This document shows positions 6,655-22,239 of a stretch of 23,685 bases of DNA, in pieces. The notes beneath the pieces were generated by a model that saw nothing but the letters and a program-made list of their open reading frames with translations, had not been told where the DNA came from and did no database searches. The stretch comes from Buchnera aphidicola (Lipaphis pseudobrassicae). GTDB lineage: Bacteria > Pseudomonadota > Gammaproteobacteria > Enterobacterales > Enterobacteriaceae. The stretch lies in assembly GCF_005081185.1 (NCBI RefSeq), contig NZ_CP034870.1, positions 434,511-458,195 of the forward strand, written 5' to 3'. Positions within the stretch are counted from its first letter, which is position 1, and the number at the start of each line of letters is the position of its first letter. A program made the position numbers and the translations under genes.

Positions 6655-9300
6655 ATGAATAAAACAACTAACGAAATACGTCAAAAATTTTTAAATTTTT
6701 TTGAAAGAAAAGGACACGTTATTCTTCCTAGTAGTTCATTAATACCACATAATGATTCTACTTTATTATTTACTAATGCAGGTATGAATCAGTTTAAAGA
6801 GTTTTTTTTAGGTCAAAAAAAAATTTGCTATCCTCGAATAGCAACAGCTCAACATTGCTTAAGAACTGGCGGTAAACATAACGATTTAGACAATGTAGGA
6901 TATACTTCTAAACATCATACATTTTTTGAGATGCTTGGAAATTTTAGTTTTTCTGATTATTTTAAAAAAGAAGCAATCGAATATGCTTGGGAATTATTAA
7001 CATCAAAAAATTGGTTTAATATACCTAAAAATAAATTATGGATTTCAGTATATAAAGATGATTATGAGACATATGAAATATGGGCAAATATCATTCAAAT
7101 ACCTACTGAACGAATTATAAAAATAGGTGATAAAAATCAATCTAAATATAATTCAGATAATTTCTGGCAAATGAGTGATACTGGTCCATGTGGACCATCT
7201 ACGGAAATTTTTTATGATTATGGTGATAAACCTATAACAAATTCAGTAGAATTTTTAGAAAATAAAAATGATCGTTTTATTGAAATCTGGAATATTGTTT
7301 TTATAGAATTTAATCGAATTTCTAAAACAAAAATTGTTTCTTTACCAAACAAGTCTATAGATACAGGAATGGGTCTAGAAAGAATATCTGCTGTTTTGCA
7401 AAACGTAAATTCTAATTATGATATCGATATATTTCAAGAATTAATTAAAAAAGTTGCTTTATTTAGTTGTGTAAAAGATTTAAATAATATTTCTTTAAAA
7501 ATTATAGCTGATCATATTAGATCATGTGCCTACATCATTGCAGAAGATATTATACCATCAAATGAAAATCGAGGTTATGTTTTAAGAAGAATTATTAGAA
7601 GAGCATTAAGACATGGACATAAAATTGGAATCAAAAAAAGATTTTTTTATAAGCTAGTTGATGTTTTAATACAAGTCATGGGTACTAGTGCGAATATATT
7701 AAAAGAAAAAAAAGAACAAATAGAAGAGATATTAAAAACAGAAGAAATACAATTTTACCAAACTCTTGATAAAGGTTTAAAAATATTAAATCATGAACTA
7801 AAGAAAACAAAAAATACAATATTATCAGGAGAAACTGCTTTTTATCTTTATGATACGTTTGGATTTCCAATTGATTTAACAGCTGACATATGTCGTGAAA
7901 GAAATATAAAAATAGATTATATTAATTACAAATTATTGAAAGAAAAACAAAAAAAACAATCTAACATAAAAAATAAATTTCATAAAGATTATAGTAATAC
8001 GGTGATTATAAATGATACATGTTTATTTGAAGGATATAAAAAACATAAAACAGCATCTGTAATAAAACACATTTTTGTAAAAAATCAAGCTGTTCAAGAA
8101 ATTTTAATAAATGAAACTGGAATCATTTTTCTTGATACAACAACATTTTATGGAGAATCAGGTGGACAAGTTGGTGATATAGGTGAACTATATCATAAAA
8201 ATTCACGTTTTATAGTAGAAGATACAAAAAAGTACGGCAATACAATAGGACATATTGGAAAAATTATTTTAGGAAAAATGCAAATCAATGATAATGTATA
8301 TACTAAAATTGATAAAAATTATAGACATTCTATTCAACTAAATCATTCAGCTACACATTTACTACACGCTACATTACGAAAAATATTTGGTAAAAATGTA
8401 CATCAAAAAGGTTCTTTAGTTAATAGTACATATTTAAGATTTGATTTTTCTTATTCTAAACCTATAAAACTATCTGAAATACAAGAAATTGAACATATTA
8501 TTAATATGAAAATTCGTGATAATATTCTAATTAAAACTAAGAAGTTAACTTTAGAAGAAGCAAAAAAAAAGAATGCTATGTGTTTATTTGAAAATAAATA
8601 TGATTCAATTGTTCGTGTTGTATTTATCAACAATGATTTTTCTATAGAACTTTGTGGAGGAACACATACAAAAAGAACTGGAGATATTGGATTATTCAAA
8701 ATTACTTCCCAATCAAGTATCTCATCAGGAATTAAAAGAATTGAAGCTAAAACTGGACAAAAAGCAATAGATTATTTACATGAAAAAGATAATAATATAA
8801 AAGATATATCACTTATATTAAATTGTAATCAATATCATATAAAAGAAAAAATACATCAAATAATAAAACAAACAAAAGAATTGGAAAAAAAAATAATTAA
8901 TTTTCAACAACAAGAAAGTTTAGATTATGTAAAAACATTAATTAAACATGCTAATGATATAAAAGGAATAAAATTTATATCAAATATTTTTTACAATTAT
9001 GAACATAAACTATTAAGAATAATAGTTGACAAATTAAAAAAAGAATTAAAAAAAACCATTGTTATTTTAATAAATATTGTTAAAAATCGTTTTACTATAA
9101 TTATAGGAGTTACAGAAAATTTAACTAATGATGTAACAGCAATAAGTATTATGAATATAATTATGAAAAAAATACATGGAAACGGTGGAGGGAAAAAAGA
9201 AATTGCTGAAGGAGGAGGTATCAATACAAAACAACTACCTATGATTTTGAATCATATTCAATTATGGATTAATACTCAATTAAAAAACAAAAAAGAATAA
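6655..9300 (+). CDS. alaS: Alanyl-tRNA synthetase
   Basis: Charges tRNA-Ala, recognising the G3-U70 pair. The 881 residues (E. coli 876) cover all domains: the class II catalytic core (motif 1 region FTNAGMNQFK, DTGPCGPSTEI, motif 3 GMGLERI), the tRNA-recognition domain (RRIIRRALRHG), the editing domain with zinc-type ligands H564, H568, C667 and H671 (HSATHLLH and CGGTH), and the C-terminal C-Ala domain with the glycine-rich GNGGGKKEIAEGGG near the end. The order alaS-csrA-tRNA-Ser-tRNA-Arg-gshA is as in E. coli. The product is lysine-rich, like its neighbours, with no frame break. Confidence 0.98.
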   Translation: MNKTTNEIRQKFLNFFERKGHVILPSSSLIPHNDSTLLFTNAGMNQFKEFFLGQKKICYPRIATAQHCLRTGGKHNDLDNVGYTSKHHTFFEMLGNFSFSDYFKKEAIEYAWELLTSKNWFNIPKNKLWISVYKDDYETYEIWANIIQIPTERIIKIGDKNQSKYNSDNFWQMSDTGPCGPSTEIFYDYGDKPITNSVEFLENKNDRFIEIWNIVFIEFNRISKTKIVSLPNKSIDTGMGLERISAVLQNVNSNYDIDIFQELIKKVALFSCVKDLNNISLKIIADHIRSCAYIIAEDIIPSNENRGYVLRRIIRRALRHGHKIGIKKRFFYKLVDVLIQVMGTSANILKEKKEQIEEILKTEEIQFYQTLDKGLKILNHELKKTKNTILSGETAFYLYDTFGFPIDLTADICRERNIKIDYINYKLLKEKQKKQSNIKNKFHKDYSNTVIINDTCLFEGYKKHKTASVIKHIFVKNQAVQEILINETGIIFLDTTTFYGESGGQVGDIGELYHKNSRFIVEDTKKYGNTIGHIGKIILGKMQINDNVYTKIDKNYRHSIQLNHSATHLLHATLRKIFGKNVHQKGSLVNSTYLRFDFSYSKPIKLSEIQEIEHIINMKIRDNILIKTKKLTLEEAKKKNAMCLFENKYDSIVRVVFINNDFSIELCGGTHTKRTGDIGLFKITSQSSISSGIKRIEAKTGQKAIDYLHEKDNNIKDISLILNCNQYHIKEKIHQIIKQTKELEKKIINFQQQESLDYVKTLIKHANDIKGIKFISNIFYNYEHKLLRIIVDKLKKELKKTIVILINIVKNRFTIIIGVTENLTNDVTAISIMNIIMKKIHGNGGGKKEIAEGGGINTKQLPMILNHIQLWINTQLKNKKE

Positions 9301-9313
9301 AAATTTTTTTAAT

Positions 9314-9356
9314 TTTTTGATTAAATAAATTTATCTCAGATCAAAAATATTTTTTA
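9314..9356 (+). terminator. Weak AT-rich terminator after alaS
   Basis: TTTTTGAT (9314-9321) pairs perfectly with ATCAAAAA (9340-9347). An inner TAAAT/ATTTA pair lies in the loop, and a T-rich tail follows. The stem is mostly A-T and would be weak; it is placed correctly, just after the alaS stop. Confidence 0.35.
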
Positions 9357-9451
9357 AAATATACAATTTATTAATTCAAATATATTTATATTAAATGTAA
9401 TAGATTACAAGATTTTTGGTCTACTTTTAACCCTATATTATTCATAACACC

Positions 9452-9493
9452 ATGGAGTGGAAAAGTCGCACTCTTTTAAAATATTTTAAGGAG
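9452..9493 (+). promoter_or_regulatory. csrA leader: hairpin and GGA sites including the Shine-Dalgarno
   Basis: The leader has a 5-bp G+C-rich stem GAGTG (9455-9459) / CACTC (9469-9473) with a 9-base loop, directly followed by four T. A GGA lies at 9454-9456, and a second GGA lies in the Shine-Dalgarno AAGGAG (9488-9493), seven bases before the csrA ATG. CsrA binds GGA-containing sites and in E. coli represses its own translation this way, so this may be an autoregulatory leader. It could equally be a terminator for alaS transcripts. Confidence 0.5.
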
Positions 9494-9500
9494 CACAATA

Positions 9501-9686
9501 ATGCTGATTCTCACTCGTCGAGTTGGCGAAACATTAATAATTGGAGATGAAATAACTGTAACAGTACTAGGAGTTAAAGGTAACCAAGTTCGCATTGGTG
9601 TAAATGCCCCTAAAGAAGTTTCCGTACATCGCGAAGAAATATACCAACGTATTCAAACTGAAAAAAAACAACAAAAAAAATGTTAA
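9501..9686 (+). CDS. csrA: Carbon storage regulator CsrA
   Basis: Dimeric RNA-binding translational regulator that recognises GGA motifs and, in E. coli, controls glycogen, glycolysis and flagellar mRNAs. The 61 residues match E. coli in length and almost in sequence: [30 protein letters not shown] and [11 protein letters not shown], with the RNA-contact residues L4 and R44 kept. This is one of the least diverged proteins in the window, implying strong purifying selection. It has an excellent Shine-Dalgarno (AAGGAG) and its own perfect terminator just downstream, so it is probably a single-gene transcript. I see no CsrB/CsrC-like RNA, which would carry many GGA hairpins. Confidence 0.98.
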
Positions 9687-9693
9687 TTTATAC

Positions 9694-9731
9694 TGCATCT
9701 TACTACTTTTGAAGTAAGATGCACATTTTTT
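9694..9731 (+). terminator. Intrinsic terminator of csrA
   Basis: A perfect 10-bp stem (TGCATCTTAC at 9694-9703 with GTAAGATGCA at 9714-9723) and 10-base loop is followed after two bases by six T. It starts seven bases after the csrA stop codon, and separates csrA from the tRNA transcript. Confidence 0.88.
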
Positions 9732-9766
9732 ATATTTTATATCAATGTGAAATTAGCAAAATATGT

Positions 9767-9794
9767 TTGACTTATATTCAAAAAAAAGTAAAAT
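9767..9794 (+). promoter_or_regulatory. Sigma-70-type promoter of tRNA-Ser/tRNA-Arg
   Basis: A -35 box TTGACT (9767-9772, five of six to consensus), a 16-base spacer and a -10 box TAAAAT (9789-9794, five of six) lie between the csrA terminator and tRNA-Ser. The expected start near 9801 would leave a leader of about 17 bases. A TTGAC hexamer is rare in such AT-rich DNA, which adds weight. Confidence 0.62.
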
Positions 9795-9817
9795 AATAAA
9801 TATAAAAAGTAAAGTTA

Positions 9818-10132: not shown

Positions 10133-10146
10133 AGGAGTATAAATTG
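10133..10146 (+). promoter_or_regulatory. Shine-Dalgarno and TTG start of gshA
   Basis: AGGAG at 10133-10137 stands six bases before a TTG codon at 10144. The TTG is followed by codons aligning with the E. coli GshA N-terminus, and no in-frame ATG fits better, so this site sets a non-ATG start. Confidence 0.8.
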
Positions 10147-11815: not shown

Positions 11816-12955
11816 CTAACTAGATAATGCATTTACCTTATCAATTTTTTCCCATGGAAAACCTTCTCTTCCAAAATGACCATAAACTGCAGTTTTGAGA
11901 TAAATAGGTTGTAGAAGATTAAGCATTTTAATTAGTCCATATGGACGTAAATCAAAAATATTACGAACTAACGAAATTAAAGATTGATTGCTTATTTTTC
12001 CTGTTCCAAAAGTATCTATCATAATAGAAATAGGTTCTGCTACACCAATAGCATATGAAAGTTGAATTTCACATCGATCAGCTAAACCTGCTGCGACAAT
12101 GTTTTTAGCTACATATCTAGCTGCATACGCAGCAGATCTATCTACTTTTGAAGGATCTTTTCCAGAAAAAGCACCTCCTCCATGTCTAGACATACCACCA
12201 TATGTATCAACAATAATTTTACGACCTGTTAAACCACAGTCAGCTACTGGACCGCCTATAACAAATCTACCTGTAGGATTAATAAAGAATTTAGTGTTTT
12301 TTGTTAACCATCTTTTTGGTAATACCGGTTTTATTATTTCATCCATGATAGCATCCTTTAAAATATTTTGAGAAATATTTTCTAAATGCTGAGTAGAGAA
12401 AACTACAGTATCTATTCCTAGAATATTTCCATTATTATATTTAAATGTTACTTGACTTTTAGCGTCAGGTTTTAACCAAGGTAAAATTTTGTTTTTTCTT
12501 AATTCAGATTGTTTTTTCATTAAAAGATGAGCATAAGTAATAGGTGCCGGCATTAAAACCTCGGTTTCGTTGGTAGCATAACCAAATATAATACCTTGAT
12601 CTCCAGCTCCTTGATCTAATGGATTAATCCGATCTACACCTCTATTTATGTCTAATGATTGTTTTCCAATCGTACTTAATACTGCACAAGAATTAGCATT
12701 AAATCCTGTATCAGAATCAATATAACCAATATTTTTAATAGTATTACGAGTAATTTCTTCTACATCAACCCATGCAGTGGTTGTAATCTCTCCTCCAATT
12801 ATAACCATTCCTGTTTTAACGTATGTTTCACAAGCAACACGTGCTTTTTTATCTTGTTTAAGTATTTCATCAAGTAAAGCATCAGAAATTTGATCAGCAA
12901 TTTTGTCTGGATGACCTTCTGAAACAGATTCAGAAGTAAAAAGATATTCATTCAT
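11816..12955 (-). CDS. metK: S-adenosylmethionine synthetase
   Basis: Makes S-adenosylmethionine from methionine and ATP, the methyl donor for TrmD and RsmE in this same window and the cofactor of the radical SAM enzyme QueE. The 379 residues (E. coli 384) show [18 protein letters not shown] at the N-terminus, [12 protein letters not shown], the phosphate loop [16 protein letters not shown] and the ending [11 protein letters not shown] Shine-Dalgarno-like GGAAG stands about six bases before the ATG. It faces endA divergently across an AT-rich spacer. I see no match to the MetJ operator AGACGTCT upstream, so methionine repression of the E. coli kind seems lost. Confidence 0.98.
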
Positions 12956-13223
12956 TTTAAGCTTCCTTATTATTGTAATAATTATTTTTTTAAACTCAGA
13001 AAAATATGTAAAAATATAATGATAAATATAAACTATATTAAATTTAATTATATTTATTTTTTATTTTAATTAATTTTTATTTTTTAAAAATTTATTTAAA
13101 AGAATATATTGATATTTATTGCTAAGAAATAAAAAATATATTATATAATTATATAAATAAAAAAATAAAAAATATATTTTCTTATTAAGAACATATCATA
13201 TAAAAAATAATAAAGATAAAAAA
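12956..13223. other. AT-only divergent spacer between metK and endA
   Basis: These 268 bases are almost pure A and T and hold no convincing gene, RNA or conserved box. A 15-base direct repeat (AATAAAAAATATATT at 13128-13142 and 13164-13178) is present but is of low complexity. Promoters for both divergent genes must lie here, yet the composition makes any -10 match meaningless. Confidence 0.5.
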
Positions 13224-13939
13224 ATGATAAAAAAAGTAATGATTTTAATCAGTATGTTTTTTTTTTGTTTTCAATAAAATTTAATAATAGTAAACAAAAA
13301 AATATCAAAAATTTTTATAAAGCAAAACTCAACGCAATTAAAATCCATCAAAATGCACCGGGTTCATTTTACTGTGGATGTAAAATTATTTGGAAACAAA
13401 AAAAAGGAATTCCTATTCTATCATCTTGTGGATATAAAATCCGAAAAAATAAAAATCGAGCAATGCGAATTGAATGGGAACATGTAGTACCAGCATGGCA
13501 ATTTGGACATCAAAAAACATGTTGGAAAAAAGGAGGTCGTAAAAAATGTAAAAATGATCAAAAATATCGATATATTGAATCTGATTTATATAATTTACAA
13601 CCAGCGATTGGAGAAATAAATGCAGATCGTTCCAATTTTATGTATGATGAACTAAAAAACTCAATTCCAAAATATTATGGAAAGTGTAAAATGAAAATAG
13701 ATTTTAAAACAAAAACAGTTGAACCACCTGAAAGAGCTCGAGGTGCAATAGCTAGAACTTATTTTTATATGAGTGAAAAATATAAAATTACTTTATCTAA
13801 AAAACAAAAAAATTTATTTAAAAAATGGGATAAAAATTTCCCTGTAACAACATGGGAGTGTAAAAGAGAAAAATTAATATTTCAAAAACAAGGCTATCAT
13901 AATAATTATGTTTATAAAAAATGTATCCTTAAAAAATAA
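13224..13939 (+). CDS. endA: Endonuclease I, frame broken at a T10 run in the signal peptide
   Basis: Periplasmic DNA endonuclease that in E. coli cuts double-stranded DNA. The body (from about 13265) is clearly End[25 protein letters not shown] (histidine of the beta-beta-alpha-metal fold), [34 protein letters not shown] and VTTWECKRE, with all eight E. coli cysteines kept. The only ATG start with a signal-peptide-like stretch, [14 protein letters not shown] at 13224, is in another frame and stops at 13275-13277. The two frames meet in ten T (13257-13266). One extra T, or a -1 slip, would give a continuous exported protein. A leaderless start at TTG 13265 is the alternative. rsmE follows 14 bases later, as in E. 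coli. Confidence 0.85.
13257..13266 (+). repeat. T10 homopolymer at the endA frame junction
   Basis: Ten consecutive T separate the signal-peptide frame from the mature nuclease frame. In the ATG frame, bases 13259-13265 form a T TTT TTT slippery heptamer in the phase needed for -1 slippage. Runs of this length are also sites of RNA polymerase slippage in AT-rich symbionts. Confidence 0.9.
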
Positions 13940-14744: not shown

Positions 14745-15329
14745 TTAAAAATACCATATTTTATTAGGAGTTAAAATGATAGGTAAAGAAACGTCCCAGG
14801 GTTTTCTAGGTATAGTTGATATCAATTGAAAATCATAAGAAAACCCTACTGGAAAAAAATTATTTTTCCAGTCTCTTAAACAAGTATCATAAAATCCTCC
14901 ACCCATTCCTAATCTCATGCCTGTTTTATCAAAAGCTACTAATGGTACAATTATTGTATCTAGATAATATATTGAAATAATATCTTTAACATTAAAAAAA
15001 GGTTCTAATATATTATATTTATTATAATATAAAATAGAATTGTAATAAAAAGGAGCGAAGAATAATTTTCTTTTATAAGGATGTATTATAGGAACAAAAA
15101 CTTTCTTTTTATTTAACCATAATTTTAATATTAAAGGATATGTATTTATTTCACCATCAAATGGTAAAAATAAAGCAATATTCTTAGAATTATAAATAAA
15201 TTTACAGGTATATGCAAGTTTTGTAATTTGAATGGATGCATTATATTGTTCTTTGAAACTTAAAGATTTTCGTATAACTCGTATATACATACGAATATCA
15301 TTTCTATTTTTAAAAAATTTTTTTGACAT
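14745..15329 (-). CDS. fau: 5-formyltetrahydrofolate cyclo-ligase
   Basis: Converts 5-formyltetrahydrofolate to 5,10-methenyltetrahydrofolate with ATP, recovering an inhibitory folate by-product (ygfA in older E. coli naming). The 194 residues are of normal size, with the basic start region [33 protein letters not shown] and the family signature [16 protein letters not shown] near residue 138. It follows rpiA by only 12 bases on the same strand, so the two are probably co-transcribed. In E. coli fau lies near rpiA but in the opposite orientation, with serA between. The 6S RNA gene that precedes fau in E. coli is not here. Confidence 0.93.
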
Positions 15330-21567: not shown

Positions 21568-22239
21568 ATGAGAAAACTTATGTACTATCCAGTGAATGAA
21601 ATGTTTCAAACAATACAAGGAGAAGGTTACTATAGTGGAATACCATCAATTTTTATTCGATTGCAAGGTTGTCCAGTTCATTGCAAATGGTGTGATACAA
21701 AACATACATGGACATGTTCTGATACGAATAAAATTTCTATCGAAGAATTGATAAAAAAAAATATATCGAATAAAACATGGAGTTATATTGACGTTAAAAC
21801 AATAATTTTCAATATAAAAAAACAAAAATGGAAAGCTAGACATATAGTCATCACCGGTGGAGAACCATGTATATATAATTTATCATTTCTTACATATGGG
21901 TTAGAAAAGAATGGATTTACTTGTCAAATCGAAACAAGTGGTACTAAATTAATTAGCTGTTCTTTTAATACCTGGGTAACAGTTTCACCTAAAAAACATA
22001 AAAATACATTGTATAGTTCAATATTACGAGCAAATGAAATTAAATATCCAGTTTTAAAAAAAGAAGATTTATCATATTTAGATGCAATATTATCAATATT
22101 AAAAAATCGAAAAAACTGTCATATTTTTTTACAGCCGATTAGTCAAAACAAAGAATCATTGAAAATTTGCATCGAAACATGTATCATTAGAAATTGGCGA
22201 CTTTCTATACAAATTCACAAATATATCTTGATAAGATAA
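21568..22239 (+). CDS. queE: 7-carboxy-7-deazaguanine synthase QueE
   Basis: Radical SAM enzyme turning 6-carboxytetrahydropterin into 7-carboxy-7-deazaguanine on the way to queuosine in tRNA. The 223 residues match E. coli, with the iron-sulfur cluster motif CPVHCKWC (C35, C39, C42), NEMFQTIQGEGYYSG at the start, ITGGEPCIYNL (SAM-binding GGEP) and LQPISQNKE near the end. The E. coli protein begins MQYPINEM, so the ATG at 21580 (MYYPVNEM) is an equally good start; no Shine-Dalgarno decides. It converges on queD, the preceding step, with only 16 bases between the stops. Confidence 0.95.
   Translation: MRKLMYYPVNEMFQTIQGEGYYSGIPSIFIRLQGCPVHCKWCDTKHTWTCSDTNKISIEELIKKNISNKTWSYIDVKTIIFNIKKQKWKARHIVITGGEPCIYNLSFLTYGLEKNGFTCQIETSGTKLISCSFNTWVTVSPKKHKNTLYSSILRANEIKYPVLKKEDLSYLDAILSILKNRKNCHIFLQPISQNKESLKICIETCIIRNWRLSIQIHKYILIR

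Follow-up and report, generated by a model that had tools for sequence, protein, structure and literature searches.

In the aphid symbiont Buchnera aphidicola (Lipaphis pseudobrassicae), endA is read here as a working gene that has inherited a frameshift at a run of ten T within its signal peptide, with the two frames joined by slippage of RNA polymerase; we put the probability of this reading at about three in four. Since the gene is split into two frames at a T run, production of the complete enzyme probably requires slippage by the copying machinery there. The window, by which we mean the entire 23,685-nucleotide stretch that was analysed (NZ_CP034870.1, positions 434,511 to 458,195), places the signal-like N-terminus of EndA and the nuclease in different frames that meet at exactly ten T. 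The features of the locus, all on the + strand and numbered from the first letter of the window, are as follows.

13224..13256, + strand: ATG-frame start of endA: N-region with positive charge (MIKK), then the initial portion of the signal peptide's hydrophobic core (sequence, translation)
13257..13266, + strand: T10 run at which the nuclease frame meets the ATG frame (sequence; T10 or T9 in broken relatives)
13259..13265, + strand: T TTT TTT heptamer in phase with the ATG frame, a possible ribosomal -1 site (sequence and frame)
13275..13277, + strand: TAA ending the ATG frame (translation)
13265..13939, + strand: endA nuclease frame including its stop codon, in -1 with respect to the ATG; its first standard start is TTG 13265 (ORF, Pfam match)
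13310..13924, + strand: region matching solved endonuclease I (query residues 16-220), with all eight cysteines inside (alignment to PDB sequences)

Translation from ATG 13224 gives a signal-like peptide of 17 residues, and the nuclease frame is open over 239 codons, with no ATG, GTG or TTG ahead of the TTG at 13265. The nuclease frame matches Pfam Endonuclease_1 (PF04231, E 8.6e-38) as well as five PDB endonuclease I sequences (E 1.3e-77 or better), and the nearest named public relatives of the protein are from Buchnera. Alignment to the solved enzymes begins at nuclease-frame residue 16, about 44 bases 3’ of the run, so the break lies inside the signal peptide and the catalytic domain is whole. 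A preliminary description of this DNA had held that the signal-peptide start and the nuclease occupy different frames at T10, that a T TTT TTT heptamer lies in phase there and that all eight cysteines are kept. The coordinates were borne out, with the break recurring across the genus; the heptamer was found where it was said to be, and each of the eight cysteines aligns with a cysteine of PDB chain 2pu3_A. The window has a GC content of 23-28%, and its gene order, with names assigned from the translations, is presumably rpsP-rimM-trmD-rplS ... gshA-metK / endA-rsmE ... pyrG-eno-queE-queD. A promoter scan of 12930-13300 returned five sites against 6.2 expected. Elsewhere in the window, gshA apparently starts at a TTG (10144) preceded by an AGGAG motif (10134-10146), and matches to the ygfA-like gene (14745-15329) and the queE-like gene (21568-22239) were found in only 13 and 22, respectively, of 35 orthologous stretches.

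Thirty-six genomes of the same genus were searched, and endA was present in 35. Comparison of the run and frame among them, a check that the preliminary description had proposed, placed the same break at the same position and in the same phase in 28 genomes, with T10 in 26 and T9 in two. These include the symbionts of all four of A. pisum Tokyo (G029), A. kondoi (G002), U. ambrosiae (G016) and S. graminum (G001). In 27 of the 28 broken genes, the lengths 5’ and 3’ of the run vary by whole codons; the gene of the U. ambrosiae symbiont (T9) departs from this by one base on each side, which leaves the overall phase intact. The ATG and a MIKK/MLKK-like start recur genus-wide, and the ATG-frame stop lies -1 to 65 nt past the run in 25 broken genes, while the other three lack a stop in the first 150 nt from the ATG. 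The frame is open in seven of the 35 genomes, where the signal-like N-terminus is in frame with the nuclease, so the break is not indispensable. Three public EndA proteins (P0004, P0005 and P0027) also have a continuous signal peptide and nuclease, which suggests that the frame has re-opened in additional lineages; P0004 seemingly regained it 3’ of the run.

The break appears to be older than the split between the aphid tribes Aphidini and Macrosiphini, and thus tens of millions of years old. In a FastTree phylogeny built from nine neighbouring proteins, leaving out best matches that covered <70% of the query, the deepest branch of the genus holds a broken endA (G024), with support of only 0.49-0.51 at the deepest nodes. 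Broken genes occur on both sides of the tribal split, in symbionts of S. graminum and Aphis nasturtii, which we take to be Aphidini, and of Acyrthosiphon and Brevicoryne, which we take to be Macrosiphini, and the open frames are scattered. Parsimony required a minimum of seven steps, resolved as one break and six re-openings when breaks were made costly, and twelve breaks were needed when re-opening was forbidden. Judged from this distribution, endA looks like one inherited break. The age of the split used by Degnan et al., as given in the relevant passage of PMC3164680, has a mean of 65 million years and a range of 50-70.

The run itself has been kept long. A T run of at least nine is found in endA of 31 of the 35 genomes and one of at least ten in 27, more genomes than for each of 99 control clusters of A/T runs in 13 neighbouring genes, whose best values were 26/35 and 17/35, respectively. 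Four A-run control clusters were nearly as persistent, with at least nine bases in 22-26 genomes; T runs made up just five of the 99, and the best of those listed reached nine or more in 10 of 34 genomes. Matches covering <85% of the query were left out of the control-cluster analysis and of the codon-position and Phe analyses, as were six gene-genome matches holding a stop, in each case near the C-terminal end. TTC makes up 9.1% of Phe codons, and in the 13 neighbouring genes it is used in at least one genome at 132 of 148 conserved Phe columns; interruptions of the run were found in 0 of the 28 broken endA genes. In a small control on spacers, 43 comparisons drawn from 12 pairs, with every matched run entered once per partner, showed runs of at least nine bases unchanged in length 22 times. 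Eleven of these 12 pairs have endA broken in both members, and its run is of equal length in all 11.

Two rival explanations deny either the break itself or a working gene. Long homopolymers are generally error-prone, and a length error at the run could stem from sequencing, the dull alternative named in the preliminary description, or from assembly. Such an error fails as an explanation, because a single broken phase is shared by 26 separate genomes with T10 and two with T9, while seven relatives are open; we give such an error virtually no chance. The other explanation is pseudogenization, with endA inactivated and starting to decay; the literal frame break and the loss of the gene in one genome (G023) might speak for it. 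Against it stand the genus-wide extent of the break, its repeated re-opening, and a nuclease in which internal stops were found in none of the 35 same-genus genes. Nuclease dN/dS was 0.14-0.48 in nine pairs with both members broken, and 0.26 or less in eight of them. In the ATG frame 5’ of the run, diversity is greatest at third codon positions (permutation p 0.005; 26 T10-broken genomes), and 3’ of the run the third codon positions are again the most diverse, now those of the nuclease frame, both in the first 60 nt (p 0.014; 25 genomes) and beyond (reached in 0 of 20,000 permutations; 25 genomes). By these patterns, both segments stay coding, each in its own frame. What real decay of endA looks like is seen in the 36th genome, G023, where just an eroded remnant is left between metK and rsmE (L122, about 9180-9800). 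The decay in sister strains that had been named as a refutation was thus sought and, G023 excepted, the result went against it; the earlier claim of selection rather than decay holds, and with the intact nuclease, the dN/dS values and the contrast with G023 we rejected decay as very improbable.

If the gene works, the two frames must either be joined or be used separately. In the latter case, translation of the nuclease would begin independently, at a codon such as ATT or TTG within or past the run, and the enzyme would remain cytoplasmic, with the upstream peptide acting as a leader or having no role. Public gene calls of broken strains (P0002, P0008, P0010, P0019, P0023 and P0025) do have their starts, at differing points, within the run or beyond it, which means that they omit the signal peptide, and a TTG lies before or close to the run in six of the 28 broken genes. 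However, in 15 of the 28 the nuclease frame lacks any ATG, GTG or TTG between its upstream stop and the WEH motif; in seven the first such start lies at least 61 nt past the run. The upstream ATG frame is itself conserved as coding, and its stop is at no fixed place, which means that restart is not coupled to termination. The missing start codons in 15 of 28 genes and the unfixed stop led us to set aside both an internal start and leader-peptide coupling as quite improbable. Joining could also take place at the ribosome, by -1 frameshifting on T TTT TTT with the mRNA staying at U10. Because the heptamer of the window lies in phase, a ribosomal -1 shift would give the same protein as +1 slippage, and the runs and phases in the broken genomes allow it. 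However, none of eight sequences folded from among the 28 broken genes had downstream RNA structure stronger than shuffles (z -1.5 to +0.7, folded without pseudoknots), and the run has 9-10 bases in 28 of 28, where the heptamer needs seven. Transcriptional slippage, according to the part of PMC1088944 that treats it, needs about nine bases; a run kept this long therefore favours transcriptional slippage over a heptamer shift, which we consider unlikely.

Slippage of RNA polymerase on the T10 of endA would lengthen the run by one U, or shorten it by two, in a fraction of the mRNAs, and in these the signal peptide would be joined to the nuclease. The remaining mRNAs would yield a short hydrophobic peptide only (17 residues in the window), since the break lies inside the signal peptide. 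The genome encodes a DsbA-family protein and signal peptidase I, which would make export and disulphide formation possible. We infer the making of the joined protein, a shift during transcription and export of the enzyme. The preliminary description had likewise proposed rescue by polymerase slippage; given the persistence of the run, the coding character of both segments and the finding of no stimulating structure in the eight genes folded, this is the best-fitting account of the sequences, and its placing of the shift in RNA rather than at the ribosome stays provisional. A public protein, P0007, agrees with the EndA of the A. pisum type at 202 of the 202 residues compared and has the joined frame, with four Phe, one of them extra, as T11 would give. 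This protein would require a change in nucleic acid, which counts against a ribosomal shift; it derives from a source with the label ‘lgn’, whose longest contig measures 1,790 nt, and may reflect transcript slippage, strain variation or error. In a study of Buchnera transcription, 151 of 157 insertions fell in homopolymers, and the same data, in the portion of the report that deals with them, held no detected frame-restoring cases (PMC5574713).

Outside the genus, a family search sampled 392 genomes, and all 22 listed matches from genomes of 1.4 Mb or less were examined. An in-frame start precedes a hydrophobic-looking N-terminus, as judged by eye, in 21 of these 22. The exception, a reduced symbiont of the same family (G206), has endA split at T8 in the same phase as the window: in L102 1466-1498 the ATG at 1466 reads MLSAALLFIFFTPR..., a T8 lies at 1491 and the nuclease is in a different frame. 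This split looks independent of the genus-wide break. A further contig scan for relatives returned three, all distant. Within the genus, rsmE (G004, G014) and queE (G011, G025) are also broken at A10 or A12 runs (L042 10403-10412, L052 10204-10213, L049 17850-17861 and L062 17053-17062), each in only two genomes among those with a match. In addition, metK is fragmented over two frames in G016 (L054) and has no match within the stretch fetched from its sister G019 (L057), which suggests that metK has been lost in this clade.

Frameshifts rescued by slippage are already known from symbionts. Wernegreen, Kauppinen and Degnan reportedly described ancient homopolymer frameshifts in Blochmannia in 2010 (MBE 27:833) and argued that selection keeps them. 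As in Blochmannia, where a dnaX frameshift is, in the section of PMC3017870 concerned, common to two species, an A/T run in endA joins two frames of a conserved gene in an AT-rich reduced symbiont and the break is shared between lineages; unlike there, it is found in 28 of 35 genomes and on the deepest branch, and lies inside a signal peptide. The poly(A) frameshifts of Buchnera and Blochmannia in Tamas et al. (2008, PNAS), as summarised in passages of PMC3164680 and PMC3017870, come from the same organism group and have the same proposed mechanism. Those rescues are experimentally supported, whereas that of endA is proposed here from its sequence. Programmed transcriptional slippage has been measured for Shigella mxiE and spa13 and Thermus dnaX, according to excerpts of PMC5009743 and PMC1088944, and there too two frames are connected through roughly nine consecutive A or T. 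The longer product of mxiE, as given there, requires slippage; the shift in endA, by comparison, is deduced rather than measured, and its short product has no assigned role.

A search of openly licensed papers returned no report of a frame break in endA. The gene has two traits of an ancient frameshift rescued by slippage: a shared break at an A/T run of at least nine bases and purifying selection on both segments. Recurrent murF breaks were read by Degnan et al. as four independent events, unlike endA, which looks like a single one, and of 69 pseudogenes in their four Buchnera genomes 42 were confined to a single genome and arose from homopolymer mutations (both as stated in part of PMC3164680). 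Set against these single-genome cases and the rsmE and queE breaks in two genomes each, endA is unusually old and widespread, and is notable for its breadth, age and position.

That most lineages have not re-opened the frame could reflect either a selected low dose of the enzyme or tolerance, since slippage may suffice. Selection may have kept T9-T10 out of frame for more than 50 million years as a regulatory device, with slippage metering a small dose of periplasmic nuclease; we offer this tentatively, as the odds seem to us to lie against it. That the share of in-frame transcripts could set the nuclease dose had been suggested in the preliminary description. Such a candidate device may have arisen twice, with the split in G206 as the second case. 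Because the break appears old and is common to most of the sampled genomes, the question of tolerated noise versus selected control becomes testable. ‘Endonuclease I’ is among six families whose signal-peptide-less members associate with endosymbionts, according to the part of PMC5952966 that lists them, and the endA break could explain this listing, at least for these Buchnera. The case is also a warning that symbiont genes scored as frameshifted or as lacking a signal peptide can be functional.
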